This document shows, piece after piece, positions 1,621-63,667 of a stretch of DNA of 64,000 nucleotides. Position numbers and translations under genes: made by a program. Position 1 is the first letter of the stretch. Every line of letters begins with the position of its first letter. Source of the stretch: Spinacia oleracea (lineage: Eukaryota > Streptophyta > Magnoliopsida > Caryophyllales > Amaranthaceae); assembly GCF_020520425.1 (NCBI RefSeq), contig NC_079487.1, forward strand, positions 126,750,385-126,814,384. The letters run 5' to 3'. Under the pieces are notes generated by a model, which saw only the letters and a list, made by a program, of their open reading frames with translations, was not told the DNA's origin and made no database searches.

Positions 1621-5450
<3,830 letters not shown>

Positions 5451-5742
5451 CTATCAATTTATAGGAATATTAATTAGAATAAATTTTTAAAATCTTTTTT
5501 CCTTTTTTGGGGGATTTTTTCTTCGTTTTGAAACCCTTTTCACACTCTTTTCTGTACTCCTCCGTAAAACCCTTCACTAAATCAGGGTGATTAAGGAAGG
5601 CCAAAAAATGAAAGAAATAATAAGGGGCCAAGATGTAATTCGGCGCACAATTTCGGTCCTTTGGTGATGTGTGAATACTCCGTATATTTTTACTTCAATA
5701 CTTCCTCTTTATACTTTAGTAACGTTTTCATTTGTGTATCGT

Positions 5743-6497
5743 TATTCGACGCCCGCCCACGCTAAAATCGCCCTACTATTTATAGCGAAAGTACAAAACT
5801 ACCCTTATATTTTTTTACCCCTCCCTTTCATTTTTTTACCCTTCTCACCTCACCTTTCCCTCACCTCTCTCCCCTCCCCCCCTCCCCACCGATCTGGCTG
5901 CCGGAAAATCGTCGGAAAAATGAAATTCCGGCGAGAATTTTTTTACCCCTTTTATAATTCGCCGGAAAACTGATATTCATACATGTTTCTTCATAATTCG
6001 CCGGAAAACTGAAATTCTGGAAAACGTTAGTATCTTCATAATTCGTGTGAGAGTTGCGGCGGTGTTTATAGTCGAGGAAGTTGTCCCGGGAAATCGCTCC
6101 CGGAAAGCTCGTAAGCTTCAATGGAGGAGGTAAAAATGGTGTTTTTTTTAAAAAAAAAAAAAAAATTATTCATTTCTGGCGCACAAGATTTGCACCGTTC
6201 ACATGTACCTGGCGCACGGAATTTGCGCCAGTTCCATGGACCTGGCGCAAATTCCGTGCGCCAGGTCCATGGAACATATGCAAATTTCGTGCGCCAGGTA
6301 AGGATCAGAGATGGGGCGGCGGAGATGGGGCGGCGTTGAGGGCGGCGGAGATGTTTATAGCCGGCAGGAGGAAGGGAGAGAGAGAGCAGAGAAGGAGAAG
6401 GCTCATGAAGGAGGGGGGGTGAATTTGAATTTAAAGGGTAGAATCGTACTTTAACGTAATAAATTAGGGCGTTATTAACGGAACAGGGCGTCGAATA
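5743..6497. mobile_element. Non-autonomous TIR element with internal perfect inverted repeat
   Basis: Inverted ends TATTCGACGCCC (5743-5754) and GGGCGTCGAATA (6486-6497) bound about 755 bp. Weaker symmetry continues inward ('gggcgattttagcg' against 'gggcgttattaacg'). Inside are two copies of 'ataattcgccggaaaactgat/aattc' near 5957-6016, and a perfect inverted repeat at 6209-6264 built from the 23-bp arm beginning CTGGCGCACGG. Small open frames on both strands come from this repeat content and match no family I know. The class is uncertain. It lies in the promoter-side flank of the spermidine synthase gene. Confidence 0.6.
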
Positions 6498-6856
6498 AAA
6501 ATCCCCTTTCATTTTCTCGATTGACAATTTTGGCAATACATCATTTCAATTACATAGACTTATAATTAAATTCAAACTCGGTTATGTTCACCTTATTTCT
6601 AACTATTAAGGATTATTCAGGTGTAACTAACTAAATTAAGTTCAGATAAAATAAGTTCATGAAAAATAAGTGAAATCGGGTGAATAGTACGCATCATTAC
6701 GAATACATCTCTCATTTGTTAAAGGTATTTGCAAAATGTATAATAGTTGATATTTTGAACATATACATTGTGTCAAATCTTATAATCCTTGCATAACTAG
6801 ATAGCCGTAGTTCTTTTCTTTAAGTATGAATCCTAACACTTATAAAGCCTTGAACT

Positions 6857-23755: not shown

Positions 23756-26700
23756 ATGGCAAATCAATTGCTCTCATCTTTCTTTTGTCGCGCACTGGTT
23801 TCTTCAACTCGTTCTACTCTTTTTCATGGTACTTCTTTCTTCTTCTCCTTTTCTTCATGAACTTATGGTTTATATGAACAAGTTCTTGTACTTGGAACTT
23901 GAAATATTCTGATGTTAATCTGCTGATATCTACCCTAGTTAGTAGTTAATCTATGTTGACAAGATGTATGATCTTCATTTTTCATTGTTATTATTGCTCT
24001 AGTTTGGTGAACATGATTGATGTTGCTTCAAAAATATCAAGTATTTTCATGGTTTCCAATGCATATATTTGACCGCTTATATCTTTAAATACTCTGCACT
24101 CTATTATAAATGAAGAAGATATTTGAAAAGTATTCATTTCAAGATCCGAAATGATAATGTATTTTCAAATTTTATAGTAGCAACTAGCAAAAATACAATC
24201 GAAGTTTTTAAAGTTTGTTGCACTTATCAAAGAGCGGATGAGGCGTTAAAAAAGAATTATACTTTCTCTGATTCAACATGATTGGCTATTAGGATGAGTT
24301 ATAGTAGTAAATTTGATCTTAAGATCAAGTCCTCTTTAGTAGTCTTTGTATTTGGTGTACATCAGTTTTATCTTAACATTCTTAAGTAAACATGATTTTG
24401 TTTAAGACTAATGCTGCGGCTTCTATAAATGTTTTTAAGGGAGAGCTTCTCAGTTGAGAAGAGTTATCTGCAGCTACAGCACAACTTCTTCCATTGAGGA
24501 ACCCATCACTCCGCCTGTAAAGGTGAAATATACTCAGCTTCTTATCAATGGACAATTTGTGGATTCAGCTTCAGGTAAGACTTCCACTGATATATTAATC
24601 AGTAGAAAAGATTTACTGTGCGTTTAAGGTAATTCAAGTTTCAACATTTTGCTGCGTTTTCAGGTAAAAAATTCAAGACACTTGACCCTAGAACAGGAAA
24701 TGTGATTACTGAGGTTGCTGAAGGTGATGCTGAGGATATCAACCGTGCAGTTGCTGCTGCTCGCAAAGCTTTTGATGAAGGGCCTTGGCCTAAGATGACA
24801 GCTTATGTAACTTGCTACTCTTTTTATCCTTTGACATTGTTTTTCTTTTCACTAAAGCTTCAATTTTGTTACTAATTCTGATACTTTAATTCTACAGGAA
24901 AGGTCAAGAATCCTGTTAAAATTTGCTGATCTCCTTGAGCAGCACACGGATGAGATTGCTGCCCTCGAGACATGGGACAATGGAAAACCATATGAGCAAG
25001 CTGCTAAAGTCGAACTACCAATGTGTGTTCGTATAATGAGATATTACGCTGGTGGGTAAATAAGCTGTTTTAACCAAATTAAAGTATATGATTTTGTGTT
25101 TAATTTGTTGACAGTTTTTCCATGTTCAAAATTTTATCAGGATGGGCAGATAAAATCCATGGTCTAACTGTGCCTGCTGATGGACCATATCATGTGCAAA
25201 CCCTCCATGAACCAATCGGTGTAGCAGGCCAAATTATCCCATGGAATTTCCCACTTCTTATGTTTGTATGGAAGATTGGTCCTGCCTTAGCTTGTGGCAA
25301 TTCCATTGTTATGAAGACAGCTGAACAAACACCCTTGACTGCCCTTTATGCAGCAAAACTTCTCCATGAGGTAACTATCTGATACAGTGATAGGTCCTTT
25401 TAACTTCATCTATTTCACACTATAAAGAGTAGAGAATAGAGAATAGATTTCATTGCAGTAGATGATATGTAAAAGTAGGCAATCTAATCTATGTTGCTCG
25501 TGTTTAACCTTATGAATGTTGTGGCAGGCCGGACTTCCTGATGGTGTCCTTAATGTGGTTTCTGGTTATGGTCCTACTGCCGGTGCAGCTCTTGCATCTC
25601 ACATGGATGTGGATAAGGTAATAACTAATAAACAACGTATATACATAAGTGTTTTATATATATGAATGTACTCCAAAAACAAGAAAAGATAAAATTGATG
25701 TTGCATTGTTGCAGCTTGCCTTTACTGGATCAACTGAGATTGGGAAACTGGTGCTTGAGATGGCAGCAAAGAGTAATCTTAAGTCAGTGACTTTGGAGCT
25801 TGGAGGGAAATCTCCTTTCATTGTGTGCAAGGATGCTGATATAGATCAAGCTGTTGAACTTGCACATTTTGCCCTCTTCTTCAATCAGGTTAGTCTGACT
25901 AACTTCTATAAAATAAATCAGTCCATTATTTCTATGCTTTTTCATATATGATAGCTCAAAGGATATGATCATGATGTTCCCATTGCTTTTACAGGGACAA
26001 TGCTGTTGTGCTGGCTCTCGTACATATGTACACGAAAGTGTATACGATGAATTTGTAGAGAAAGCTAAGGCACGTGCCATAAAGCGTGTTGTTGGCGATC
26101 CATTCAGGAAGGACATTGAACAAGGTCCTCAGGTATACTGACAGTTCTAATTTCTTACTAGCACTGTATAAGAAGTGGATGAAATGCTCACTTTTCCTGG
26201 ATTTTGTCAGATCGATTCAGAGCAATTTGAGAAGGTGATGAAATACATAAAGATCAGGCATTGCGAGTGGAGCTAAGCTAGAAACAGGAGGAGAACAGTT
26301 AGGTTCAAAGGGATACTACATTCAACCCACAGTTTTCTCCAATGTCAGTGAAGACATGTTGATTGCACAGGATGAAATATTCGGTCCTGTTCAATCTATC
26401 CTCAAGTTCAAGTGAGTTCATTCAATTCCTTTAAATCTAAACACCCATTTTTTATTATTACTAAATCGATCTTGTGTCGTCTGATCATATATAATAATGT
26501 AGGGACCTCGAAGAGGTGGTTCGAAGAGCCAATGCTTCCCAATACGGTCTAGCAGCAGGAGTGTTCACACAGGACATAGACACTGCTAACACCTTAGCTC
26601 GGGCCTTAAGAGTTGGGACGGTTTGGGTGAACTGCTTCGATATATTCGATGCTGGGATCCCCTTTGGTGGGTATAAGATGAGCGGACAAGGAAGGGAGAA

Positions 26701-26776
26701 GGGAATTTACAGTCTCATGAATTATCTGCAAGTCAAGGCTGTGGTTACTCCTTTGAAGAATCCTGCATGGCTTTAA
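23756..26776 (+). CDS. ALDH2B: Mitochondrial aldehyde dehydrogenase family 2, copy 1, frame-disrupted in exon 9
   Basis: NAD-dependent oxidation of aldehydes such as acetaldehyde in the mitochondrial matrix is the family role. Exons: 23756-23828, 24440-24574, 24664-24806, 24898-25051, 25141-25370, 25528-25617, 25715-25888, 25995-26132, 26211-26411 and 26503-26776. A Ser/Arg-rich presequence ([20 protein letters not shown]) comes first. Then come [29 protein letters not shown], the catalytic Glu in [10 protein letters not shown], the catalytic Cys in [14 protein letters not shown], and the C-terminal KNPAWL. Exon 9 is 201 nt against 200 in the sister genes. An extra A in 'atacataaagatcagg' (about 26247-26251) shifts the frame to a TAA at 26273, some 160 codons before the end. 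Exon 10 is intact in the old frame. It would encode about 536 residues otherwise. Either a very recent pseudogene or a base-call error. Confidence 0.9.
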
Positions 26777-27448
26777 TATGTCTGAAATAAAGAGGAGCAG
26801 AGTTTCTGCCTTAATTTTTATATTTGTTGGTCATTGTGTATGGTGTGTAATACTAGTTGATCGATTTTGGTAGGTTGAAGTCAATGTGCAAAATGGCAAG
26901 GAAACTTAGGAAAGAGTTTAATTTTTAGGCCAAGTTACATTAAGGTACAAGCACACAAAGAAGAAATAACATGGTTATGCACATGATATAATCGGTTGAG
27001 AATGGAAAATTGCCCTTGTTCAGAATCATCTATTTACAATAGGACGATGATTTTCACTTCTGTTCCTCAAAGTTTTTTACCTTCACTATTTGCACGGACT
27101 CAAATATAATACTTAAGTACTTAATCACATTATATCTAATTCGGTTATGTGAAAAAGTAATTATACTTTGTAAATATTTGATAGTTTGAATACCTACACG
27201 AATAAAACAAGATTTTACGTGATAATGTTTTGGCGTAATTCAATATAATAGCGAGACGAAATAGTGGATAGAGGATAGCCACTATCATCTTCTGAATTTG
27301 ATGTAAAGTAGCAAGTAGACGAAATAGTGGATCGAGGATACCTTTTTGATTTCATGATACTCCATATTTGCTGGTGGTTTAATTATAGTAATGTCCAAGG
27401 TACTAATTAACTAGCTGATGGGAATATTGAGCTGTTGTCTGCTGATCA

Positions 27449-27808
27449 TTCCTCCCTCCATTTTATATTACTTGTTGTTAAGTCATCCAAAGAAGGTTTT
27501 TGTTGATAAGACTCTGTTATGTTCAACTTATTTACCCGTAAAAAATTAATAATTATTCACTTATTTTAATTTAGTTTACAAAAACGAAAAATAAAAATAA
27601 ATAAATAAATGGAACAGAACATAAACATAAGTTTCTAAGATCGTGCGAAAGAATTTATAAATTGATACTCAAAATCAACATGTGCTAGTGTGCTAGTGTA
27701 TCAATAAAAATTCTAAGAGAACAAATAAAAAGCAGGTCTTTATATTTTAAGCAACTGATAATAAGAACTAAGAAAAAAATAGCCAGATAATATGAAATGA
27801 GGGGAGTA
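27449..27808. mobile_element. Stowaway-type MITE with a smaller nested element
   Basis: Ends are 'ttcctccctccattttatat' and 'atatgaaatgaggggagta', an imperfect inverted pair. Inside, about 27515-27625 carries its own inverted ends ('tctgttatgttcaacttatt' and 'aaatggaacagaacataaac') of the 'ataagttcag' MITE family, so one element appears to sit in another. Confidence 0.55.
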
Positions 27809-28226
27809 CATAATTTTTTTTAAGGGGGGAGTACGTAGTCGAAATATAACAACTCGTCAACTATAGATAAGAGTACATGCCTGGTGTTCGCTAGAATAAC
27901 ACAAACGCATATGTAAACTTGTAAAGAACAAGCCATTCCATAAAATATTATTCGATATAAATCGTTTATTTTAGTTATTACGTACCTTTACAAATAAAAA
28001 AAACATAATCCATGATTCCATGGTTTTTTGAGTAATGTCATATTTTTTATGCAAGCGCATGTGTTCTACCGAGTAGTATTTTACCGGCGCTAATGTTTAT
28101 TGTTCGTCCTTGTCCATTATCTAAATTGCGGAAGTATGAGTAAGTCATTGTTTAATCTTTCCCACTAATCGATAATTAAAATATTAATTTAAGGAAGTAG
28201 ATAGGAGTTAATTATAGCAGCATTTT

Positions 28227-28237
28227 CTATATAAAGT
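28227..28237 (+). promoter_or_regulatory. TATA box of ALDH copy 2
   Basis: TCTATATAAAG lies 170 bp before the start codon. A leader intron between 'agtg|gtgagt' (about 28291) and 'ttatag|caaagg' (about 28386) would make the mature leader short. Both are inferences from consensus. Confidence 0.45.
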
Positions 28238-28406
28238 TGATCACTATCAAGAATTCAAAATGTCATGCTTTGGTGTCTACAACTTCTAGTGGTGAGTTGC
28301 TAATTATGTCTTCACTTTTACTCTTTTCCCATTAATTATCTCATTAATTTTCTGCTAATCAAGTTAATTAGTTTTGTGTTTTATAGCAAAGGCAAAGAAA
28401 GTGGCA

Positions 28407-31400
28407 ATGGCAAGCCAAAAGATCTCATCTTTCTTATCTCGCACATTGGCTTCTTCCTCCATCCGTTCTCTGTCTCAACAAGGTACTTTCTTGCTCAAAC
28501 TTGGTTTTTATTTCATGCTTTAGAGATGAAATTGCTACTTACCTCTCTATTAGATGGATAAATTATTTTCTTTTATTTTCTTTTAGTTTAGCTTTGTTTT
28601 TCACTCGAATGATAAATCTCAGAAAAAATTAATTAATTGCGGATAGAGGAAGTAAGCCGGTCATAAGTTGTGACAAGAATTACTTCGTCCCTTTGAGCTT
28701 TTGTTTGTGAGGTTTAATACTAATCATTATAAAAGGGAGGTAGTAGATCTCAAGTTTATCAAGCTCATGTAAAACCAGTTTTATGTAGGAAGAGATCTAT
28801 TTTGTTAAAGTTTTTGAACTTAACTTTTGTAATGCACTAGTAGAAAAAACCCCTGTTGCAACCCCTTGTTGCAGCGTACATGTGTTAATACGCTTCAACA
28901 ACCAGTCGGTCAACGCGGGTCAAACCCTTTAAAGGGTTATTGCAGCGTACAATTTAATTGTTCCCTGCAAAAAAGTTTGTTGCAGCGTACATTTTAAAAG
29001 CCCGCTGCAATAGCTCGTTTTTGTTGCAGCGTACTTGTGAGAGCCCCCTGCAATAACCCGGGTAAAAAAAATTTCGCTGCAATATTCGTTGAAACTAATT
29101 CAAAACAAATTAAGCATCTCTCACTCTCAACTCCCTTCTTCTCCCTTAACTTTCCCTGCGTCATCCCCTCAAAAAAAAACCCTTTCTCTTCGTCGGTGGT
29201 TCTAGCCTCCTCGCCAGAGGCCACCTATTAGCTTGCTCGGCCGTTTTGATTCTGCCTATCATTCTGCCTTTTGATTTCGATTCCAATTTCACAACTAGGT
29301 TTTGGTATTGTAGATGTCGAGTTGCAATTTCTAATCAATTGGAATTGCGGAACTTGATTTTGGTGGATTCATACATTTAATTTTTTTTGTTTGTTTGAGT
29401 CCTATTCTTGATGTGCGGAAAAGGAAGGCGGTTCTACTAGATATGGAGTATAAAAGAATAAAAGGGCACGTTACAATAGTTTTTAAAACCAAAGTACTCT
29501 GTATTTCGAATGTCGTACCTTATAATATTGTAGTTTGTCTTTTCGTACATGTGACATATAAATTAAACCAAAGTTATTTTGAACGTTGTACCTTATAGTT
29601 AGTAGTCTGTTTTACATGTGACCTATTACAGTACCGGTCCGTAGAGCATGGAAAGTATGTTGTGATCTAGCAACAAGAATGTCAAAATCATTTCTCTTGT
29701 GGTACGGCCTAGTAATTAAGATTAAATCTTGTGTGATTCAAGGCTCAAGAGAATGAGATTGAACATCTATACGTGTGTGTTTACATGTAAGTAGTCCCAC
29801 ACCAGAGAAGACAATAGTTGGTTTTACTCCCTAATCGATGTGGTAATACAAGGCACTCCTAGTTCTTGAAGTTGAATTTTAACCACCAGTTTATGATGTT
29901 AGCTAGGCTCGTGTTTCGATCTGGCTTTTCTCATAAAATGAAGTTAAAAATTGATTGCAATGAGCAGCTGAGCTAATCATAAACATACCCTCTGTACAAA
30001 TATATGGTGTTTTAGATTAATGTTGCGCCTATTCACTGTATTTGTTCAGGAAGGACTAGTCACTGCAGAAGGGTGGTGAGCAGATACAGCACAACTGCTG
30101 CAACTGAGGAACCTATTACTCCACCTGTTAGTGTTAAATACACTCAACTTCTTATCAATGGAGAATTTGTGGATTCTGCATCAGGTGTGTTCTTATTATG
30201 CGCGATACTATAAATGACTAATCAGAAAGAAATATAATGTCTACATTTCTGAGGATTAATGAATTTCCATCTGTTTCAGGTAAAAAACTCAAAACATATG
30301 ATCCTAGGACAGGAAATGTGATTGCTGAGGTTGCTGAGGGTGATGTTGAGGATATCAACCGCGCAGTTTCTGCTGCTCGCAATGCATTTGATGAAGGGCC
30401 TTGGCCTAAGATGACTGCTTATGTAACTAGCTTAGCCAGTTTCTTTTCATCTGACATTATTTTGTTTGGAAAAGTAATATAATTAATTCTGAACTCTTAT
30501 TCTTCAGGAAAGGTCAAAAATTCTGTTCAAATTTGCTGATCTACTTGAGCAGCATACTGATGAGATTGCTGCCCTTGAGACTTGGGATAATGGAAAACCA
30601 TACGAGCAAGCTGCTAAAGTCGAATTACCAATGTGTGTTCGTCTAATGAGATATTATGCTGGTGGGTGTTATCATTGGCTCTTTTTCCCCTTTTCACAGA
30701 GGTCTACTTTAACCAATGTGTGTTTGTCTAAGAACATATGTTTTGTGTTTTTGTTGATAATTGTTTGATGTTGAAACTTCTTAGGATGGGCTGATAAGAT
30801 ACATGGTCTAACTGTTCCTGCTGACGGACCATATCATCTGCAAACTCTGCATGAACCAATAGGTGTAGTAGGCCAGATTATCCCATGGAATTTCCCAATT
30901 CTCATGTTTGTGTGGAAGGTTGCACCTGCCTTAGCATGCGGGAATACCATTGTTCTGAAGACTGCAGAACAAACCCCGTTAACTGCACTCTATGCTGCAA
31001 AGCTACTCCATGAGGTACTTACTCTAAGCAAGGCCCTTTTGTTTTTGGCTTAATTTCAATTTCAGGGCTTTTTTTTCAGTTAAGTTCAGTTCAATTCAAT
31101 TCAGTTCAGTTCAGCTCAAAAGGACAGGGTTTGCCCCACTATGGAATAGAAATGTATTTGGGTCAGAATTTTCTGACCATAACAGTATGGCATATATCCT
31201 GCTGCAGGCTGGACTTCCTGATGGTGTAGTAAACGTGGTCTCCGGATATGGTCCTACTGCTGGTGGAGCTCTTGCCTCTCACATGGATGTGGATAAGGTA
31301 ACTCTACATCTCAATGTCCTCAAAGGAAAGAATTAGTACTGATTAACATAATATTCATTAACATATATAGACTAACATGACATTCTAATTTTGCAGCTGG

Positions 31401-32491
31401 CTTTTACCGGATCAACTGTGACAGGGAAACTAGTGCTTGAGATGGCAGCAAAGAGTAATCTAAAGCCAGTGACTTTAGAGCTTGGAGGGAAATCACCATT
31501 TATTGTTTGCAAGGATGCTGATATAGACAAGGCAGTTGAATTAGCCCACTTTGCTCTCTTCTTCAACCAGGTTAGTTGACTTCCTAGATCGGGTTTCATG
31601 GGTCAAACACAGACATTTATTTGGTCATTTCTGTTGGTTTTTCAGGGACAATGCTGCTGTGCTGGGTCTCGTACATATGTACATGAAAGCGTACATGATG
31701 AGTTCGTTGAGAAAGCAACAGCACGTGCTATGCAGCGTGTTGTTGGTGATCCTTTCAGGAAGGACATTGAGCAAGGTCCTCAGGTAAGCCAATGTGGATC
31801 ATAAAAGACACATTTGCATATTCCTTCCTATATATACACATATATGTATACATGATGTTTTGTTTTTTTCTGTATTGTTGCCTGAATCAGATTGATTCAG
31901 AGCAATTCGAGAAGGTAATGCAATACATAAGATCAGGTATCGAGAGTGGAGCTAAGCTAGAAACAGGAGGAGAAAGGTTGGGGTCAAAGGGTTATTACAT
32001 TCAACCAACTGTTTTCTCTAATGTCAATGAAGACATGTTGATTGCACAGGATGAGATATTTGGTCCTGTTCAATCTATCTTCAAATTCAAGTGAGTATTC
32101 CCTTCTTTAACTGTTCAATCAACCAAGTTAATTAAGAAACAACCTGTTGTTTTTTCTTATAAATCGTCCAATCTAAAGAGTATGTATGTATGTATGTATG
32201 TATGTATTTACTTGTAGGGAATTACAAGAGGTGGTGCAACGAGCCAATAACACTCACTATGGGTTAGCAGCAGGAGTCTTCACCCAAGACATAGACACTG
32301 CTAATACATTAGCTCGAGCCTTGAGAGTTGGGACGGTTTGGGTGAACTGCTACGATGTTTTCGATGCAGCCATTCCATTCGGAGGGTACAAGATGAGTGG
32401 ACAAGGAAGGGAGAAAGGTATATACTGTCTCCAGAACTACTTGCAAGTCAAGGCTGTGGTTACTCCTCTGAAGAATCCTGCATGGTTATAA
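28407..32491 (+). CDS. ALDH2B: Mitochondrial aldehyde dehydrogenase family 2, copy 2, intact, 10 exons
   Basis: Exons: 28407-28482, 30050-30184, 30280-30422, 30508-30661, 30785-31014, 31208-31297, 31397-31570, 31646-31783, 31891-32090 and 32218-32491, giving 537 residues, normal for plant ALDH2B. The presequence ([20 protein letters not shown]) is rich in Ser and Arg and lacks acids, as for mitochondrial import. The Rossmann and NAD-binding part carries [10 protein letters not shown]. Catalytic Glu is in [10 protein letters not shown] and catalytic Cys in [14 protein letters not shown]. The C-terminal segment is [20 protein letters not shown] to KNPAWL. Exon lengths 2 to 10 match copy 1 exactly apart from copy 1's extra base, and the protein is closest to copy 1. 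Intron 1 (1.57 kb) contains a CACTA transposon end. Intron 9 contains a TATG microsatellite. Confidence 0.95.
28835..29290 (+). mobile_element. CACTA (En/Spm) element end with subterminal repeats, in ALDH copy 2 intron 1
   Basis: CACTAGTAGAAAAAACC at 28835 has the CACTA terminal motif followed by the A-run typical of plant elements. Downstream the motif TTGCAGCGTAC (or its 'gctgcaa' inverse) occurs repeatedly to about 29080, as CACTA subterminal repeats do. The GC-richer block to about 29290 would then be internal element sequence. No matching TAGTG end is found before exon 2 at 30050, so the element appears truncated and the right boundary is uncertain. Confidence 0.65.
32181..32206. repeat. 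(TATG)n microsatellite in ALDH copy 2 intron 9
   Basis: About 6.5 perfect TATG units, just before the exon 10 acceptor. Confidence 0.9.
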
Positions 32492-32708
32492 TACAGTATC
32501 AAATAAAATACTGTTGTTAAGTGTTCTTAATTATCTTCTGTATTTCTCACCAACTTAGTTGGTTTATAATAAAAGAGATGCCATTTTGTCTACCTTGATT
32601 TAATTTTCCATTAATATATATTGAAAATTGAGATTATTTATGTGTGTGATGGTGCACCTGATTTTCGGATACATATAAGAAATTTCACTTATGTCTGGGC
32701 AATATTTA

Positions 32709-45951: not shown

Positions 45952-48278
45952 TTATTTTGTGGTGCATTCTGGTGGTAAAACATTGTACCTATGTTTATCT
46001 TTACAATAAGAGTAAATCATTTGTTTGCTTCTTGCCCATTGAAGTCCCTGAATTTGTTGATTTGATAACTTAACAAAATCTTGGCCATCAACTGGGTCCA
46101 AACTTGATGGACTACTACTCTTCGAACACGATTTACCCGAAAGATCCTTCGGGTCGTATGCGCAACCGGCCATCTCCATTTGCCCTAAGGAAGCGGTAAA
46201 CGGGGCGTACTTATAGTTAACCGGGTATTTTCCCCCGTGGGTCGCCCACGGGGATGCATCCCATATTGTGGCATAAACAGCCATAGGTTTTGATGGATAG
46301 GATGAGGAAATTGCTGGTGTGTTTTGCACTTCCCTCACTGGGATATTGTCCACTAGAAACCTGCATTTCGAAAAAGAAAAGGTTAAAAACATAAAATTTC
46401 ATCGTAAAGTATTACAACTGGTTAAACTAGTTGACATCCATTAAATTAATAATTTTGTTATAAGATACTCCCTCCGTCCCGAAATACTCGACCCGGTTTG
46501 ACCGGCACAGAGTTTAAGGGACTTGAATTGACTTATTTAATTTAATAGGAGTAGTTGATAGTGGAGTATTATTTTAATGTAGTTAGTGGGAGGTGGGTTG
46601 AGAGGTGGGGTTGGGGGAGAGTAGGGGTTGAATTTTTAATTATTTTTTGTATGGAGTAGGGGGTAGGTGAGTTAATAGGGGTGGAGTGAGAAATAATATA
46701 ATATTGTTAGAATATTTCCATTTTTAGAAACAGGTCAAGTATTAAGGGACGACCCGATAAGGAAAACAGGTCAAGTATTCCGGGACGGAGGGAGTAATGT
46801 AATTACACAAAGAAATACCTCATTTAGCCTATATGTAGGTGTCAGTCATGATGTTGTTTAATTTCTTCTAGTAGTTTGTTACTATGTTGCTAGACATTTA
46901 AGGTATGTGTGGGGGAGTTTGTGTCTAGTTGTTTGTTATGGGCAAGTTCAAGTGATACAATACAACTCATTTTGTTTTGGCCATGAAGTCCACAATCATG
47001 CAACAACCTTACCAATAAAATTTTATTTACATTTGTTACTCTTATTGAGCTATGACTTTTACAGCACCGTTGCCGATTGAGATGCATGTTTTTCTCCTAA
47101 TCGATACCATAAAAGTCAATTCAAGTACTTTAAAAAATTAATTATTTTACTGTACCGTTGTTTTAAATTTCCTACCTGTTTTTTTATAAAAAAAAAGTTG
47201 GAATGAAGATTGGTTAGAAGTTAAAGCAAGTTGTCAAGTAACACAATAAGCAATAATGTACAACAAATTGAATTAAATGACATGTAGTTTTCTGGTAGGT
47301 ATAGTATAAGCTTAGAGGTTGAAGTTTGCTTACACAATATGATGACTATTCCAAATGATGGTATATTCATGAAACTCTGTAGTCGGGTCGAACCATAGCC
47401 GAAACTTCTCTTCTCTCCCTGTTTTTACACTTCCATTTCCGTACATGTTTGTTTGCAGAATCCAATTCCTGCTTTTCTGATGTCCAAGTAACTCGAAGTC
47501 AATCTCATCATGGTTGTGTGGGAAAACATCCGAATTCGACATCTGGTGGCGAAAATGAACACAAAAAAAAAATTAATTGATCCATGATTAGTCCGTTGGA
47601 TAGTTATATATTGTGCAACCGTTGTATTCTACGTGGTACGACCGTACGGGAGGACTTACATAGAAGGCAACAACAACACCAGAGGTGAAACCAGAGGGAA
47701 GTTTGATAGCTGCACTAAAGAAACCATAATTGTAGTGATTCTTTGAAGCAAAACCTGCACCTGTATGTTTTGATCATGTTAGATTATATTATTATAAAAT
47801 ACACCGACGAATTAAAAATCATAAATAAAACGTATAAAGTTCGTATCCACTGCATAAGGGAACTGATTTTGGCACACTGTCTTGTGAGTATAGCATGGAA
47901 AACAGTGTTTGTTAAAATCACTCCCTGCTGCATAAGGCTCCCGCGATTTAGCGCAGAGTTTGGGGGGAAGAGGGGAAAAAATACATGAAAAGAATTACCA
48001 GTTTTTTTGTCTAGGGAGATCTTAGCATTAGAACCATTGGCATAAATTTGGGCATTAGAGTCTCCAAATATTTGTGAGTAGTCCCGGTCGAAGGAAAGGT
48101 GAGGGAAGAGGCTAGTCAATCGAGTCGAGCTCGGCGGCACACCCTGAGCAGTGACTATGGTGAGAAAATTGCCATGGTTTGAAGTTAGGAGTATGAATGT
48201 GTACAAAATTATGGGTTGTAAATAGAGGAAATTGGTATGTAAGTATGCCATTTTTGTGTGTGTTTTTGAAAGAGTCAT
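45952..48278 (-). CDS. XTH: Xyloglucan endotransglucosylase/hydrolase (GH16), 4 exons
   Basis: Secreted enzyme that cuts and rejoins (or hydrolyses) xyloglucan in the cell wall. Exons on the minus strand: 48278-47999, 47760-47660, 47542-47334 and 46360-45952. Phases agree. The first ATG gives 332 residues; the second, at 48251, gives 323 and puts the hydrophobic signal peptide ([10 protein letters not shown]) nearer the start. With a TATA box at 48320-48330 the second ATG is more plausible. Exon 3 holds the catalytic motif [10 protein letters not shown] (nucleophile Glu, then Asp, then acid/base Glu), followed by the N-glycosylation site NGS a little downstream. Exon 4 has [23 protein letters not shown] and the XTH C-terminal extension with paired cysteines ([17 protein letters not shown]). 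The catalytic motif ends ELLG where most members have EFLG. The subgroup is uncertain; overall it looks group III-like. Intron 3 contains a MITE. Confidence 0.93.
46466..46796. mobile_element. Stowaway-type MITE in XTH intron 3
   Basis: TACTCCCTCCGTCCCGAAAT at the left and the inverse of 'attccgggacggagggagta' at the right bound 331 bp. It is the simple form of the element at 63127-63667, which is in the opposite orientation and carries an extra insert. It lies wholly inside the intron 46361-47333. Confidence 0.9.
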
Positions 48279-52708: not shown

Positions 52709-53181
52709 AAAGGCAACACTAGTACGTACCCACCCTATGATTGCCAGAACATAAGTGGTTAGAAAATCTAATACTCAAAGTTAATTTTAGGTTTCGTGAG
52801 TGAAGGTGTAATGGAGGGAATTCATTTCTATTAATTGTACCCCAATAGGCCAATAATGAGAAAGTGACTTTGGTGGTTTAAGTTTTTATTCCCCAAAAAA
52901 AGAATGTGGCATTCCTTACATTTATGCAATTGCAAATTATTCGCAACTTTTGGCAAGTGAGCTTAGCTCCTTTTAAGTTTTAGTTCTTTGGAGCTTCAAC
53001 TTTTCCCTTTCAATTAATATATGAACTCCATAATATCAGATCCAAAAACTCCAAAGCTTATGTAGTAAAGTAATTCATGTGCAGTGCACTAAGTTAGCCA
53101 CTAGATGATGATCTCAGATATTTGGCCACATTGTCTAAATTTCTTTAAATTTAGGAATAATTCACTTTTGTATTTAATAAT

Positions 53182-53610
53182 TGTTTGGGCTCCCAATTGA
53201 TTCTCAATTGGGCCACTAAGTCCAAAGCCCAATGGCTCTAAACAAACAGCATCAAACCTACCAATGGCTAGTCAGCCATCCATCAAGGCCCAAGGCCCAA
53301 AAGCAATAAATGACCTATGGGCATTTATTGTGCAAACACTATAAATAGGCCGCCAAGGCTCACACCTCAAGGTACGTCCAATTTACCGCCTTAAGACTAC
53401 TCTTCTAGAGAACTTCTCTCTCTAGAATCCGAGCATCGTTCTTACTTAGGCATCGGAGGGGCTTTCCTCGGAAACACCCCCGAGGCTAGTGACTTTGCTC
53501 TTGTGCAGGTGAATTCGGACTCTACTCATTCAAACAAGCAAGATCTTCAACACATACAAAAGGGGCCTTCATTCGAAGCCCATTGTTTCCATCTTTACAA
53601 CACCGGAACA
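53182..53610 (+). repeat. 5' LTR
   Basis: 429 bp. Contains a TATA-like CACTATAAATAGG at about 53338 and an inverted CCCAATTGA/TCAATTGGG near its start. Seems identical to the 3' LTR. Confidence 0.95.
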
Positions 53611-53680
53611 ATTTGGCGCCGTCTGTGGGGAAGAACACTTCAAAGCCTTTGAAAGACATCAATCACCTCTTTCCGCGAAA

Positions 53681-55717
53681 ATGGTGAATGATGTTGTTAA
53701 CAACAATGACGACGATATGATGGTGCGGTCAGATTCAGAATCTGACCAAGAGGAGCACCCTCAACCGATGGCGAGGTCACAGCCAAACAGAGCTACGACC
53801 GCCACAAATGCAGGACCTCCGATTCCAACCAGGGAAGAGCTCACTGCGGCCATGACCATCATGCAAAACTTCCTCTTCAATGAGAAGCAGCAAGGACTGG
53901 CAAATGACCGCAGAGAAGAGAGGAGGACCAGGCGAAGGCTGAACGAGCCACCCAGTGCGGAAGTGTCCAGACCCGAACGAGAACTCCTTCCCTTGACAGG
54001 TACACACTTGACGTCGAGGTGGATGGAAAGCACGTGGGACACCCAAAAAAGGGCACAACAGCAACCAGATTGGTTTGCGAGACCATCGCCTACTCCAACA
54101 GCTCTCCAAAGCGAATCGACTACTCGTAACACTCGGGTCCGAAGCTCGGTGCTCAGCAGGTTGAGGCCCTCGGTCCACTCAAGGTTAAGACCCTCGATCC
54201 ATACGAGACTCGGGGTGGGCGAGCCAAGCAGATCTGGCGAACGACCCGAGGTCAGTAGCCGAGAGAGAAGAAGAGACAGGAGGCATGATCGAACCCCTAG
54301 CCCCCATCGTACGCCCGAACGTTCTAATCACAGAACCTCGGCAAACGAAGGCATCAGGGCTAGACTCGGGAAAAGAATCATGACTCCCACGTCATCCCCT
54401 TTCTCGGACGAGCTGATCATGGAAGAAATACCGAAGGTAAGACTGCCAGCGCACCTGACCTACAGCGGAATCACAGATCCGAGGGATCATGTCATCTCCT
54501 ACGAGCAGCAAATGTTCTTGAGTCCCTACTCCGAAGCATGTTGGTGTAAATATTTCCCAACCACGCTAACCGGAGTGGCGGGAGAGTGGTTTAGATCGCT
54601 GCCGAAGGGATCGATCAAGAGCTGGAAAAAGCTGAAAAAGAGATTCTGCACACAGTTCGTGAGCAACAATCGCCCCGAGCGAACCACAGCAGAACTGACC
54701 TCAATCCAACAAGAAAGAGACGAAAGTCTGAGAGAATTCATGGCCAGGTTCATGAAGGAATCAACAAACATACCGAACTTGCAGCCAGACGTGGCCATCT
54801 TCGCCTTGAAGCACGCGCTCCAGGAAGGGAAGTTCCGTGACGAACTCTCAATGAAGAACCCCTCCAGAATAGCTGACGTGCTCCAAATGGCTGATGCGTT
54901 CATCAGAACCGAAGAGTTCAACAAGGCCGCTGCAAGATTGAAAGGATCGTCGGATCCGAGAGACACAAAGAATACCCAGAGCAAGCCCGAGGGCAGCTCA
55001 AGGAAGGGGAAAGAGAAAGTAGGAGCTAGAGAGATGAGCCCGAAGAAAGACGGGAGAAGGGGTGAACTTCAACCCAAGTACACCAACTACACTCCACTAG
55101 CTCTGCCCCGAAAAGAGATATTTAGCCTCAACAGAAATGACGAAAAGTGGAAACTACCTGGGAAGCTCAAGTCCAACCCAGCTCGGAGAAACAAGAACAA
55201 ATGGTGCGAGTTTCATGATGACTTCGGTCACCACACCGAAGAATGCAACTCGCTGAAAGACAACATTGAGGACCTCGTTCGCCGAGGCTACCTGAAACAG
55301 TACTTGTTAGACCGAAGGGAGGAAAAAGAAAAGGCCGCAAGCGGCAAACAACACGAGCAACCCCAGAAAAGGGTCTACGAAGCAACAGGGCACAAGAAGA
55401 ATGACATCCTAGTGGTGTTCGGGGGACAGAAGTCTGGCCAGGCCAGCAAAAAACACCTAAGAGCCCTCTCCCATCGGGTCAACTTCAGCGCGGTGGGAGA
55501 CAACCAGCCACACCCCCCGAACATGACCTTCACTGCTGATGATTGCTTCGGAGTCCAGTACAAACACGACGATCCTCTAGTCATTTCCATGGACCTCAAT
55601 AACCACAAGAGATCGGAAGAACAATCCAGACCTCTGAGCAGATCGACGGATTTGAAGAGTCTGGAAACTAAAGAGTCTCTTAGCAGATCTACGGATTTGA
55701 AGAACTCGCAAAACTAA
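53681..55717 (+). CDS. gag: Gag of the Tat-like LTR element
   Basis: A single open frame of 678 codons begins about 70 bp after the 5' LTR. The first 250 residues are Arg/Ser/Thr-rich and disordered. Residues about 250-420 are the retrotransposon gag (capsid) domain: LPAHLTYSGITDPRDHVISY, WCKYFPTTLTGVAGEWFRSL, ERTTAELTSIQQERDESLRE. Next come a Lys/Arg-rich linker and the variant zinc-knuckle WCEFHDDFGHHTEECNSLKD, followed by IEDLVRRGYLKQYL, a layout typical of Tat and Athila gag proteins. The C-terminus runs into the first units of the 46-bp tandem array. No protease or polymerase follows. Confidence 0.93.
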   Translation: MVNDVVNNNDDDMMVRSDSESDQEEHPQPMARSQPNRATTATNAGPPIPTREELTAAMTIMQNFLFNEKQQGLANDRREERRTRRRLNEPPSAEVSRPERELLPLTGTHLTSRWMESTWDTQKRAQQQPDWFARPSPTPTALQSESTTRNTRVRSSVLSRLRPSVHSRLRPSIHTRLGVGEPSRSGERPEVSSRERRRDRRHDRTPSPHRTPERSNHRTSANEGIRARLGKRIMTPTSSPFSDELIMEEIPKVRLPAHLTYSGITDPRDHVISYEQQMFLSPYSEACWCKYFPTTLTGVAGEWFRSLPKGSIKSWKKLKKRFCTQFVSNNRPERTTAELTSIQQERDESLREFMARFMKESTNIPNLQPDVAIFALKHALQEGKFRDELSMKNPSRIADVLQMADAFIRTEEFNKAAARLKGSSDPRDTKNTQSKPEGSSRKGKEKVGAREMSPKKDGRRGELQPKYTNYTPLALPRKEIFSLNRNDEKWKLPGKLKSNPARRNKNKWCEFHDDFGHHTEECNSLKDNIEDLVRRGYLKQYLLDRREEKEKAASGKQHEQPQKRVYEATGHKKNDILVVFGGQKSGQASKKHLRALSHRVNFSAVGDNQPHPPNMTFTADDCFGVQYKHDDPLVISMDLNNHKRSEEQSRPLSRSTDLKSLETKESLSRSTDLKNSQN

Positions 55718-56030
55718 AGAGTCTCTTAGCAGATCTACGGATTTGAAGAACTCGCAAAACTAAAGAGTCTCTTAGCAGATCTACGGATTTGAAGAACTCG
55801 CAAAACAAAAGAGTCTCTTAGCAGATCTACGGATTTGAAGAACTCACAAAGTTAAAGAGTCTCTTAGCAGATCTACGGATTTGAAGAACTCATAAACTAA
55901 AGAGTCTCTTAGCAGATCTACGGATTTGAAGAACTCGCAAAACTAAAGAGTCCCTTAGCAGATCTAAGGATTTGAAGAGCTCGCAAGATCAAAAGGCTTT
56001 CAGCAAGTCTACGGATTCAAAGAAAAGCTC
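55636..56030. repeat. 46-bp tandem array within the LTR element
   Basis: About eight to nine units, each containing TTAGCAGATCTACGGATTTG and 'agaactcgcaaaac'. Starts of successive units are 46 bp apart (for example 55682, 55728, 55774). The last units are diverged. Tandem arrays between gene blocks are common in Tat-lineage elements. Confidence 0.9.
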
Positions 56031-56309
56031 GAAAGTACAAAATTGAAAAGCAGCCAAGTAACTAACACTCATTTTTCATTCAATATTTGGGGGAAGTACA
56101 AATACATTGAAAACCTCAAAAATTGAAAACAAAATGAAACAGTTAAAATCGGCAGCCATCAACAGACAATACCGGCCTACCGAAGTACTAAGAAAGCAAA
56201 AAGAAACGAGTACAACGCAGCGCCGAGGCAAAAGGGGGAAAAGCAAGCACATATTCGGAAGTCCTCAACTGGAACCGACCGACTCTGAAGAAGACGACTG
56301 CCCGAATCC

Positions 56310-57872
56310 CTAACTCTTGGGAGTCTCAGGAGCGGCCCCTAGGGGAGCATCCTTCGAAGAACCCCCAGCAGTAGTATCACCCTCGGAAGTTGCCTTCTGG
56401 GCCCGAGCCTCTGCGAGAGCAGCTTGGCGTTCAGCTTCAGCTTCATCTCGATCAGCTTGGCATTCCACCAAGTGGTCCTCGGCCTGCATCCATAGGGGAA
56501 CTTTCTCGTTCCAAGGGAAGTGAGGCATGTGCTTCGCAAACATGCGCCGAGCACCCAGGATGCCGTTCCAGTACTGCTCTCTACACTGATCAGCAGTGTA
56601 GAGGTCGACTCGCTCCTGCTCCAACTTCCGAATATAGTCATCCTTTTCCCGAAGCTTCAGCCGAAGGACAGGCACCTTATCAGCTTGCTGCTGGATCAGC
56701 TCCCGATGCTGGACAAAATGGCAAAGCCTTAACTCTGCCTCTTTATGCTCCTTGTCGGCCGCTTCAAATTTAGACTTCATCTCCTGGAAGAGTCTATCTT
56801 TTTCCTCAAGTTCGCTAGCGAACTTAGCGGCCATATCCTTCTTTTCCTCAGCAAAGGAAGCGATCTTCTCAGCATCCTCTTCAACTCGGAAGATGAGCTG
56901 GCCAACCTCGGCCCCAATCTTCTCAGCAGACTCTCTAGCCTCGCGACTATACTGAAGGTACAGCTGCTTGACTTCCGTAAGCTCGGAGAGGAGTTGCCCA
57001 GCCTTCTGGTCCAAAATGGGAATATCACGAGCATAAGCCTCACGATATTTCCTCAATTGTTTCTCCTCAACCGAGCTACACTCGGAAGCGTACGAGGACC
57101 AGAAAACAGCCTGGGAACGAGAGAAAGATGAGCAAAAATAGGAAAAACATAAAACAAAAACACAACTCAAAGAGAAAAATCTAGCAATTACCTCGTTCAG
57201 ATAGTACTGGGCCATCATAGCCGGATTCCTCTCTTCGGCCCCAGGAACCCTCCACTGCGGGTTAGCACGAAGCAGATTCTCCCGAGCAGCCTCGGGGCCC
57301 ACCAAGGATCCCACGTGAGCCAAGGGGTCCTCTCCCAAAATCGGAGCCCTGGCATACCGAGCCATCGCCTCCCTTACTTCTTCGGGGATCCGTTTTAGCG
57401 GAACATCCGAACAGGGATCAGCATGGATCAGCCTATCCAGGGCCGAGGTAGAAGTAGAACCCAAAGTTGAGTGGCGCCTCTTCCTCGTCAGACCTTGCTC
57501 GGGCTGCTCCTCCTCTCCAGCAGAGGGAACCTCCTTCTGAACCTCGGGAACCGCAGCTTCGGGGCCCGTGAGATCTATCATCTCCTTGTCTGGACTCTTC
57601 TCTCTCTCGAAGGGAAGATCAGCAGACTCCTTCTTCTCCCCAGCTACCTCAGGGACATCCGAACCAGGAACAAAATCGGCTTCAATCGCCTCCATCACCT
57701 CGGTGATATCCTGGATTTCGATCCCCAAAGCAGCAGATGGTTTCAGTGGAGAGGGGATGATATCTTCCCCGATCAGCGGCTGGTCCACGGGCGGCGGTTC
57801 AGCAACCACCACACTCTTTAACTTCTGCCCTGGCAAGGGCATGAAGTGAAGAAGATTCTTAGGAGGAGGCAT
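56310..57872 (-). CDS. Antisense open frame of the LTR element: acidic and coiled-coil protein part
   Basis: Open frame of 520 codons on the strand opposite gag. The N-terminal half is Pro/Glu/Ser-rich and acidic. The C-terminal half is strongly helical with heptad-like Leu/Ala/Glu patterns over about 200 residues, such as EKIGAEVGQLIFRVEEDAEK, consistent with a long coiled coil. A hydrophobic stretch near residues 230-250 is bounded by GT and AG and looks like an intron read through in frame. No enzymatic motif recognised. Part of the antisense gene block typical of Tat-lineage elements. Confidence 0.7.
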   Translation of the reverse strand: MPPPKNLLHFMPLPGQKLKSVVVAEPPPVDQPLIGEDIIPSPLKPSAALGIEIQDITEVMEAIEADFVPGSDVPEVAGEKKESADLPFEREKSPDKEMIDLTGPEAAVPEVQKEVPSAGEEEQPEQGLTRKRRHSTLGSTSTSALDRLIHADPCSDVPLKRIPEEVREAMARYARAPILGEDPLAHVGSLVGPEAARENLLRANPQWRVPGAEERNPAMMAQYYLNEVIARFFSLSCVFVLCFSYFCSSFSRSQAVFWSSYASECSSVEEKQLRKYREAYARDIPILDQKAGQLLSELTEVKQLYLQYSREARESAEKIGAEVGQLIFRVEEDAEKIASFAEEKKDMAAKFASELEEKDRLFQEMKSKFEAADKEHKEAELRLCHFVQHRELIQQQADKVPVLRLKLREKDDYIRKLEQERVDLYTADQCREQYWNGILGARRMFAKHMPHFPWNEKVPLWMQAEDHLVECQADRDEAEAERQAALAEARAQKATSEGDTTAGGSSKDAPLGAAPETPKS

Positions 57873-58285
57873 GACTTCCGAAACCGCTTCCTACATAGCA
57901 AGTGTTCAAAGATTAGTTTCGGAAAAAGGGAGAAACGAACTACAAAAAACTCCAAGTCAGAACAAATACCTTCTCCGAGGGCTGAGAAGCCTTTGCTTTC
58001 TTCGGATGCGTGGAAGGCCTCAAAAGAGTGCTACCCTTCCTTTTGCGTTGATCCTAAAAAGGGGAGACCAAGGGTCAACGAATGTAAAAGAAGAAAAAGG
58101 AGGAAATAGAGGAAAAAGCGTGAAGTACCCGGTTCCTAGATAAAGAGATATCTATCCGAGCCGGAGATGAAACCGAAGGAACGGCACGCGGCACAGCGTC
58201 AGTCCCAGGACCCTAAAAGATGGTCCAGGACCAAGACGTTAGCCGACGGCCAACCGAAAAGAAGAAGACAAACAGAAAATCGAGC

Positions 58286-58576
58286 CTATAAATGAACACT
58301 TACCGGGTCCGAAGTTGTCTTCAACACAGGAAGCACAACCTTCACAGGAACAGCTTCAACAGAGGAGGCGGAATCCCACGGATCAGCTCGAACTTCGGAT
58401 ATCCGAGCAACCCCCGAAGGAGACAACACGTAATCCTTCAGGCGAGGATTACGAGGGTTATCTTTTCCGAACTTGTACTCGGGAGCCGGGTCGTGAATAG
58501 TCTTCAAATCCAAAGAAATGCCCAACTTCTTAGGATCAATGCAGCTAAAGCCGTACTCTGCAAAAACAAAGCACAA
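58286..58576 (-). CDS. Antisense frame of the LTR element: short middle segment
   Basis: 96-codon open frame between the two larger antisense frames (IDPKKLGISLDLKTIHDPAP, YVLSPSGVARISEV). Splice-like borders suggest it is an internal exon of the same antisense gene. Splicing of extra frames is plausible in this lineage. Function unknown. Confidence 0.5.
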   Translation of the reverse strand: MCFVFAEYGFSCIDPKKLGISLDLKTIHDPAPEYKFGKDNPRNPRLKDYVLSPSGVARISEVRADPWDSASSVEAVPVKVVLPVLKTTSDPVSVHL

Positions 58577-59727
58577 AACATGTCAGCAAAACGAAGCAGG
58601 AAAGAGAAGGACAAACTCACTGAAAAAACGGTCTCAGCCGAAAGACACCTACCCCTGTCAAAAATCCTGCTGAGACCGGCAACAGCAAGAATGTCCTCCC
58701 TCAAAATGTAATTGAGATTCGGGAGCCAGCTAGACGGCAGTCGATGGTTATCCTCTTGAGCCAAGAACCACTGAAGGAGGTCCACATAGTGGCGATGATT
58801 CCGATCTGGAGCTGCCACACCCCTCATATCAGGATCAGGAGCCACGAACCACTTCGGAGGACGATAAAAGTTGGGATGCTTCGGATCCGTCGGCACACGA
58901 ACGAGCAACCACTCCGTCTTCCAATTGTGGTCAGAGCTAAGGTAGGGGTACGCCGTGATGTAGTTCGGATCCCCCCTCTTTCGGGACTTCTTGTTGACAA
59001 TGGTCCACCAACCATACCCATCACCCTTGGAAGCATGGTTGAGAACCAGATCGTGAAGATCCCGAAAAATAGCGACAGAGCAAGGGAAATTGACGAAGTC
59101 ACACACCCATCTAAATCCGATTATGTGCCTCATAGATTTGGGTGTGAGCTGGGCCAAACTAATGTTGTACGACACCAAAAGCTCGGATACGAACGGATCC
59201 AAAGGAAAGCGGAGACCATTCTCCAAATGGTGAGTGTACACGGAAATGAACCCCCTCGGTGGATGAGTCACCCGAGGACGCTCTTGTTCAGGAAGCTCGC
59301 ACCAGTACCCCAAGGCATGCTGAATTCCGTATAGCTCCTCGGCCTTCCGATGATAATTCACCAACTTCGCTTCCACCAACCAGTCACCGCTGACCGATTT
59401 CTCCAACGGACCGTCGATCTTGGTGGTCTCGTGCAAAATTGAGGCATACCTGCCCTTCGGATCAGCTTCCGACCAATGAGCTGGAAACTCGGGGTAACGA
59501 CGACGAGCACCCGAAAAGCCAGCTCTCTCACCAGAGGTTGCGCGTTCAGACACGCCAGACCCACCAACTACATCATCTTCGGAAGCATCCCAACCAATCG
59601 AACGCTTCTCCAACGGCCGCGCCGAAGGCCGACCCCTCGAAGTTTTCGGTAACCTCCCCGAAGGCACGTTCTCCCTCTCACTAGAGGAGCCGACGACGAA
59701 CTTGCTTTTGCCCCTGTTCTTTGCCAT
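58504..59727 (-). CDS. Antisense open frame of the LTR element: 'putative gypsy-type transposon' domain
   Basis: 407 codons reading away from the 3' LTR. A basic Ser/Arg-rich start (MAKNRGKSKFVVGSSSEREN) is followed by a folded-looking region with PRVTHPPRGFISVYTHHLEN, RFPLDPFVSELLVSYNISLA and LTPKSMRHIIGFRWVCDF. This resembles the plant domain annotated as 'putative gypsy type transposon' (Pfam PF04195 by memory). The strong Trp/Tyr pattern downstream (WWTIVNKKSRKR, WKTEWLLVRVP) is also typical. Its role is not known. The family link is from recall and needs a profile search. Confidence 0.7.
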   Translation of the reverse strand: MAKNRGKSKFVVGSSSERENVPSGRLPKTSRGRPSARPLEKRSIGWDASEDDVVGGSGVSERATSGERAGFSGARRRYPEFPAHWSEADPKGRYASILHETTKIDGPLEKSVSGDWLVEAKLVNYHRKAEELYGIQHALGYWCELPEQERPRVTHPPRGFISVYTHHLENGLRFPLDPFVSELLVSYNISLAQLTPKSMRHIIGFRWVCDFVNFPCSVAIFRDLHDLVLNHASKGDGYGWWTIVNKKSRKRGDPNYITAYPYLSSDHNWKTEWLLVRVPTDPKHPNFYRPPKWFVAPDPDMRGVAAPDRNHRHYVDLLQWFLAQEDNHRLPSSWLPNLNYILREDILAVAGLSRIFDRGRCLSAETVFSVSLSFSFLLRFADMFCALFLQSTALAALILRSWAFLWI

Positions 59728-60169
59728 GGTCGCGAAATCTCGATCTAGGGTTTAGATTGAGGGGTAGAAGGAAGAACGAAGAAAAAAAGGAGAACTCAGA
59801 AACAAATTACCTTTCTCCGAAGCGGAATTCGCCGATAAAGCGAACAACACAAGTTCCCGAAGTCTAAAGTTGGCCGAATTTCGTAGATCTGAAGAAACAA
59901 ATTGCACTGCGATCGCCGGAATTTAGAGAGAGAATGGGTTTGAAAGAAGGAGTAAAAAGTTCGAAAAGAGCAAAGCACCCAGTATTTATAGAAAAGAAAA
60001 AGGGCGCATCAACTTCCTCAACCCACGATCTCCACGACACAATACAACTCCCAACACTTGTCATCAATGCAAATCATCCCTTTTCAAAAAAAGAGAGGGA
60101 ATTTTCGGACTTCTGACAGCTGGAAACCCACCCATTTAATTCTAAATGGACCGGGTCTGGGGGGCATGT

Positions 60170-60598
60170 TGTTTGGGCTCCCAATTGATTCTCAATTGGG
60201 CCACTAAGTCCAAAGCCCAATGGCTCTAAACAAACAGCATCAAACCTACCAATGGCTAGTCAGCCATCCATCAAGGCCCAAGGCCCAAAAGCAATAAATG
60301 ACCTATGGGCATTTATTGTGCAAACACTATAAATAGGCCGCCAAGGCTCACACCTCAAGGTACGTCCAATTTACCGCCTTAAGACTACTCTTCTAGAGAA
60401 CTTCTCTCTCTAGAATCCGAGCATCGTTCTTACTTAGGCATCGGAGGGGCTTTCCTCGGAAACACCCCCGAGGCTAGTGACTTTGCTCTTGTGCAGGTGA
60501 ATTCGGACTCTACTCATTCAAACAAGCAAGATCTTCAACACATACAAAAGGGGCCTTCATTCGAAGCCCATTGTTTCCATCTTTACAACACCGGAACA
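60170..60598 (+). repeat. 3' LTR
   Basis: 429 bp, by eye identical to the 5' LTR. Followed by the ATAAT duplication at 60599-60603. Confidence 0.95.
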
Positions 60599-60603
60599 AT
60601 AAT

Positions 60604-63126: not shown

Positions 63127-63667
63127 TACTCCCTCCGTCTCGGAATACTTGACCTGTTTTCCTTATCGGGCCGTCCCTTAATACTTGACCTGTTTCTAAA
63201 AATGGAAATATTCTAACAATATTATATTATTTCTCACTCCACCCCTATTAAGAGTGCGTCGAGGCGGATATCGGGCATGCAACAACAAACACATATCAAC
63301 TAAAAGACAAATAGCTAAAAGACAAAAAAGGAAGTACCATTCATGTAAAAAAAGTACCATTCTGTAAAAAAAAAATACCATTCTGTAAAAAAAGTACCAT
63401 TTGTGTTTAGAAAAGTACCATTTAATTTTTTTTTTGTCCTTTTTCCTATTTTGTCTTATGTTCTGATATGTATTTGGACACACAAAAAATAATTAAAAAT
63501 TCAACTCCTACTCTCCCCCAACCCCACCCCTTTACACATTTCCCACTAACTACATTAAAATGATACCCCACTATCAACTACTACCTATTAAATTAAATAA
63601 GTCAATTCAAATCCCTTAAACTCTGTGCCGGTCAAACCGGGTCGAGTATTCCGGGACGGAGGGAGTA
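63127..63667. mobile_element. Stowaway-type MITE with a 231-bp novel insert
   Basis: TACTCCCTCCGTCTCGGAAT at the left and 'attccgggacggagggagta' at the right. Both halves align with the element at 46466-46796 in inverse orientation. Between 'cacccctatta' and 'caaaaaataattaaaaattc' the 23 bp present there are replaced by 63251-63481. Confidence 0.85.
63251..63481. repeat. Insert with 'aaaaagtaccattctgt' array inside the MITE
   Basis: Five loose units of about 20 bp around GTACCATTCTGTAAAAAAA (63335-63425). These are preceded by a GC-richer head ('gagtgcgtcgaggcggatat') and 'aaaagacaaatagc/aaaaagg' repeats. No inverted ends seen. Confidence 0.75.

Follow-up and report, generated by a model that had tools for sequence, protein, structure and literature searches.

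The window studied here, a stretch of 64,000 nucleotides of Spinacia oleracea DNA, contains at 53182-60598 an LTR retrotransposon that retains gag and a block of minus-strand frames and is devoid of the polymerase region. An initial annotation had taken the open state of the antisense block in a recently moved, polymerase-free copy as a sign that this block has a selected role. The locus thus raises the question of whether the loss of pol is common to a lineage or private to one copy, and on what evidence the antisense block can be regarded as a gene under selection. Taken jointly, we consider it probable that the element is a recent Retand-type insertion with a one-off deletion of 4,190 bp that removed all of pol and with a minus-strand accessory gene organized as in the model presented below.

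Organization and family of the element

The features of the element, in window positions, are the following:

53177..53181, target site duplication, 5' copy (ATAAT), identical to 60599-60603
53182..53610, plus strand, 5' LTR, 429 bp, TG...CA, 429/429 identical to the 3' LTR
53614..53631, plus strand, predicted primer-binding-site-like stretch TGGCGCCGTCTGTGGGGA, from its position just 3' of the LTR; begins TGG
53681..55717, plus strand, gag frame of 678 codons (PF03732, E 3.6e-17); portion beyond 55608 foreign to gag
55601..55608, deletion junction with 8-bp microhomology AACCACAA; 4,190 bp absent as compared with L009, a full-length relative
55620..56024, tandem array, 9 units of ~46 bp
56310..57110, minus strand, antisense gene exon 7, last coding exon, 266 codons and stop; open frame, phase 0, AG acceptor
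57192..57890, minus strand, exon 6, 233 codons
57970..58053, minus strand, exon 5, 28 codons, K/R-rich by eye
58129..58212, minus strand, exon 4, 28 codons, almost the same in the two types of the gene, A and B
58304..58557, minus strand, exon 3
58653..59727, minus strand, exon 2, with start codon and PF04195 (Transposase_28/TRP28; E 1.5e-10 and 1.4e-10)
59745..59810, minus strand, predicted 5' UTR intron, GT...AG; GTAA start in 8/9 other copies, L074 being without the region
59982..59990, minus strand, TATA-like box TATAAATAC of the antisense gene; kept in 8/9 other copies, L074 being without the region
60156..60169, plus strand, purine-rich polypurine-tract region preceding the 3' LTR
60170..60598, plus strand, 3' LTR, 429 bp, 429/429 identical to the 5' LTR
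60599..60603, target site duplication, 3' copy (ATAAT), identical to 53177-53181

The LTRs had been described as identical over 429 bp, the target duplication as perfect and the element as very young, and all of this held: 53182-53610 and 60170-60598 match at every position, ATAAT is present on both flanks and the LTR differences are zero. Substitutions accumulate in rice at a rate of 1.3e-8 per site per year, by which the insertion is probably younger than ~0.3 million years. The final ~37 codons of the gag frame consist of sequence of the 46-bp repeat, downstream of the junction.

A search with the LTR across the window's own genome (894,210,420 bases), in which 40 of 1,656 candidates were scored, revealed nine LTR pairs 11.09-11.31 kb apart with 98-99% identity. 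A full-length partner of the kind that the annotation proposed to look for thus exists, and one of these copies, L009/L010, exhibits gag-pol as a single open frame of 1,950 codons. Its pol contains, by domain search, RT, RNase H, a second RNase H between RH and INT, and INT, which is the domain order described for Ogre/Retand elements (PMC6317226). The second (archaeal-type) RNase H characteristic of Retand was located in L009 as RVT_3/RNase_H after RT_RNaseH, with the integrase in the next piece, and the antisense TRP28 ORF between pol and the 3' LTR was also found (PF04195, E 1.5e-10; position by alignment to L009). The label Tat-like can accordingly be specified as Tat group, Retand type. 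L009 carries the same antisense block at 98%, but with a 1-bp deletion in exon 6. The LTR variant of the window is not private, with 63 exact places in the genome and 209 with up to one mismatch.

The element is most likely one copy of a ~11.5-kb Retand (Ty3/gypsy, Tat) family, probably the published cluster "Spinacia oleracea 1" (PMC11963269; Vicient, 2025). The likeness is one of sizes and features: Table 1 of that paper gives an LTR of 425 (426-429 here), an internal region of 10,719 (as against 10,659 for C6:138617514-138629024, a copy of this family), gag, AP, RH, INT, TRP28 and one tandem array. Unlike that cluster, the window copy is without pol.

Elsewhere in the window, direct repeats 5.6-5.7 kb apart with 80-88% identity at 24470-32507 are probably an old tandem duplication, and 46466-46653 and 63479-63667 form an inverted pair of ~189 bp with 93% identity.

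Loss of the polymerase region

The absence of the polymerase region was corroborated by colinear alignment to L009, of which the window lacks 2540-6729, the part that holds RT, RNase H and integrase. The left flank of the joint matches L009 up to 2539 and the right flank from 6722, and AACCACAA occurs on both. A 30-base junction pattern, searched with as many as 3 mismatches allowed, had a single match in the 894-Mb genome. With a 101-base junction query, for which 40 places of 945 candidates were scored, the window alone spans the joint, the remaining 39 places matching the right side of the query only. In addition, among 26 same-strand neighbour pairs less than 60 kb apart, typed by hand from the 63 exact LTR matches, a spacing of 6,988 bp was seen once, while seven pairs were 11.09-11.35 kb apart, it being noted that neighbours may belong to different elements.

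These data bear on the possibility of a non-autonomous, pol-free Retand lineage that lives on borrowed enzymes and has retained gag and the antisense gene as two necessary components. The identical LTRs and the perfect duplication would fit such a lineage, as would the tabulation, in other species, of Retand clusters missing some domains (PMC11963269, Table 1). However, a family of this kind is recognized by several copies with a common internal structure, and here one junction was found genome-wide and one LTR pair of the 26 with the corresponding spacing; the pol-free lineage was therefore rejected and must be regarded as very unlikely. On the evidence of this genome, the loss of pol happened a single time, in the window copy or its immediate template, and it is a private deletion of 4,190 bp at an 8-bp repeat in one copy of the family. 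Lying between two 8-bp direct repeats, the deletion may have arisen by a template jump in reverse transcription or by recombination after insertion.

Since the loss of pol was found in the window copy only, no pol-free lineage is seen in which the antisense gene could have stayed open, and in a copy this young, whose LTR differences are zero, decay would not yet be visible. Therefore, its open antisense gene is uninformative about selection. The argument of the initial annotation fails on this point, while the selection that it proposed is borne out by comparison among copies of the family, as described in the next section.

The antisense gene and its conservation

The separate minus-strand gene with apparent introns that had been proposed could be modelled as six predicted coding exons, which fit one frame of 999 codons (2,997 nt, 998 aa) with consensus splice sites. 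This coding length exceeds that of the 678-codon gag frame, in agreement with the earlier remark that the antisense frames outsize gag. In the window and nine other copies the coding introns begin with GT in 50/50 cases and end with AG in 49/50, the exception being L074, which bears a ~650-bp insertion within the intron concerned; the splice sites thus persist between copies that are ~12-17% different. Exon 2 ends in a phase-1 donor, that of the first coding intron. Among 30 other TRP28 loci of the genome, 23 align to within 6 residues of the last residue of exon 2, with ungapped extension where the alignment was short, and 22 of these have the donor at the same place and phase (L053 is the exception; donors alone were compared). 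Thirteen of the 23 are, where aligned, 23-29% identical to the window, and by eye the 23 fall into three groups of 4, 11 and 8. That this donor is maintained across such distant loci is, in our view, the best indication of real and old introns, and the antisense block looks like a real intron-bearing gene. The wider genome search with PF04195 scored 150 TRP28 places out of 2,698 first-look candidates.

In the predicted protein the TRP28 domain is N-terminal; a basic stretch is also present, and the C-terminal part is long and helix-like, exon 7 resembling a coiled coil by eye only. A search by sequence for relatives of solved structure found none, with matches only at E 0.46-0.86, and exon 2, modelled by AlphaFold from its own sequence alone, reached a pLDDT of 33.9. 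An antisense gene between pol and the 3' LTR, as here, is described for Silene Retand (ORF4), rice RIRE2 and maize Grande (gene23), and the Silene ORF4 has, by its description, the same Pfam domain (PMC7264820). Ogre elements also combine membership of the Tat group with an extra ORF (PMC6317226), but the domain of that ORF is the Plant Mobile Domain, which is different from TRP28. A relationship between the two domains was rejected by profile comparison (14 TRP28 vs. 5 Plant Mobile Domain rows, probability 0.1%), and no Plant Mobile Domain match was found in the 14 TRP28 members up to E 5. The genome search with PF10536 gave 126 Plant Mobile Domain matches, several of them clustered at C4:141.7-142.1 Mb.

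Plant LTR elements are generally without introns, Ogre and EVADE being the exceptions named in one review (PMC12786077). In the available text of PMC11963269, which speaks of antisense ORFs, the word "intron" occurs 0 times, and likewise 0 times in that of the review PMC7264820. The literature surveyed, namely titles and beginnings of abstracts among the matches listed, with older papers outside its scope, contained neither antisense introns nor swapped types. In this limited sense, the introns of the antisense gene and its two old types are absent from the literature examined.

The comparison among copies made use of the 40 places scored with the junction query, consisting of the window itself, 29 copies with sequence (L012-L040) and 10 without. 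According to exon 7 identity the 29 copies are 15 of type A and 14 of type B; they were picked by an exact 60-base match beside pol, which favours such copies and is blind to type.

Equal silent and non-silent change was not seen in the codon-position test across copies, and it is shown that the antisense gene is under purifying selection at the family level. For exon 7, dN/dS was 0.14-0.16 within and between copy groups (raw) and 0.09-0.15 with single-copy changes masked, while the integrase gave 0.05-0.06 raw and 0.03 masked; the antisense gene is less constrained than pol. Between the window and 30 other copies the exon 7 ratio was 0.06-0.17 where dS exceeded 0.1, with a scatter reaching 1.15 among near-identical copies, and 7 of the 30 have a premature stop in this exon. 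Against four B copies the ratio was 0.14-0.17 in frame and 1.14-2.72 in four of the five wrong frames. The opposite-strand frame "opp1" gave 0.21-0.27 in the same four pairs, probably as a result of the third positions that it shares with the antisense gene. Exons 2-6 showed 0.10-0.14 against five B copies (dS 0.39-0.56), from which the coding introns differ by 0.19-0.27, and 0.18-0.23 against four closer A copies. For gag, the single pair window-L009 gave dS 0.098 and dN 0.006.

With the gapped copies L013 and L014 omitted, single-copy changes in exon 7 comprised 53 non-silent ones, among them 3 stops, and 28 silent ones, as against 44:84 for shared or fixed changes (p 1.7e-5), the corresponding integrase counts being 34:56 and 8:49 (p 0.0025). 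From this contrast, selection seems to operate on those lineages that transmit and to be relaxed after a copy has landed. Ten deletions were recorded in exons 2-6 of nine copies, six of them multiples of three and four not.

Exon 4 (58129-58212, 84 nt) has a dS of 0-0.04 to the five B copies, with flanking exons and introns that differ by 4-19%. Its conservation is possibly due to a splicing or sense-strand signal, or to a small conversion patch.

Two types of the antisense gene and their possible significance

Where both exon 7 and integrase were needed, 27 of the 30 rows (L009 and L012-L040) were used, L027, L032 and L038 being without an integrase row. In these 27 copies, types A and B differ on average by 14.3% in exon 7 (3.4 and 4.0% within types) and by 2.36% in the integrase (2.0 and 2.2% within types). 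Silent divergence of exon 7, again with L013 and L014 left out, was 0.52 between types vs. 0.09-0.11 within them, and that of the integrase 0.09 between types. Type A as one clade was supported by 100/100 in exon 7 and rejected by the integrase data (p-AU 2.5e-6). It is thus shown that the antisense type and the integrase have different histories. The integrase does not group by type, yet it still clusters: the types need 3 changes on the integrase tree, a number as low as which was reached in 0/500 shuffles, and the nearest integrase neighbour is of the same type in 21 of the 27 copies. This clustering speaks against free mixing of the types, and the tree calls for a minimum of two to three exchanges. 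Along the gene, the A-B difference sets in inside the final ~30-60 codons of exon 7 and dies away close to the start codon, and in ten rows with partial LTRs the promoter and LTR differ from the window by 2-7% in B copies and 0-4% in A copies. Changes fixed between types were 23:22 non-silent to silent vs. 21:62 for other shared changes (p 0.006), a comparison biased by saturated silent sites; the types may differ adaptively. In one type A copy (L078, C3:8391668-8395068), the 5' part of exon 2 (window-equivalent 59450-59849) differs by 12-29% from both types and has a 39-bp deletion, which may reflect a third source, a rearrangement or a faulty alignment.

Two alternative readings have to be weighed here. 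The antisense frames could be the by-product of a constrained signal, the real product being an antisense RNA that triggers small-RNA silencing; antisense RNAs can indeed yield small RNAs (PMC7264820), and exon 4 is conserved even at silent sites. Nevertheless, 63 of the 83 shared changes in exon 7 lie at third positions of the predicted frame, the splice sites are kept while the introns diverge, and one 3-bp deletion in exon 6, at a single position, is common to 4 of the 5 B copies, so that a pure RNA function appears very unlikely. The two types, on the other hand, could descend from two old families between which gag-pol and LTRs became homogenised afterwards through a few recombinations, with no meaning for the function of the gene. 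Plant LTR elements recombine (PMC5668417), and the residual clustering of the types on the integrase tree, both in the number of changes needed and in the same-type nearest neighbours, indicates that a few exchanges suffice. What this history leaves unexplained is that the divergent block is bounded near the ends of the coding gene and that the types are nearly equal in frequency in the sample; we hold it to be quite possible, although we stop short of calling it probable. That the antisense gene is an exchangeable specificity module, both types of which persist near-equally on one recombining gag-pol/LTR backbone in a manner that recalls the swapping of retroviral env genes, is a tentative proposal that we regard as rather unlikely.

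Returning to the gene model, the antisense gene would probably be transcribed from its own promoter, with the TATA-like box near the 3' end of the element, and spliced, removing a leader intron and five coding introns. These introns would escape loss during retrotransposition, since the RNA that is packaged as the genome has the opposite strand, where they are no splice sites. As regards function, maize Grande gene23 is described as having its own promoter and a nuclear product (PMC7264820), and DNA binding has been predicted for TRP28 (PMC11963269). On these grounds, it might be guessed that the antisense protein is a nuclear regulator or cofactor that acts in trans on the element.

The role of the antisense genes of Retand elements is a standing question in the field. 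Selection at the family level, an old donor site and a separate history turn what was an "antisense ORF" into a testable gene model. In addition, if the introns owe their persistence to a gene orientation opposite to that of the genomic RNA, they would constitute a natural marker of element replication.
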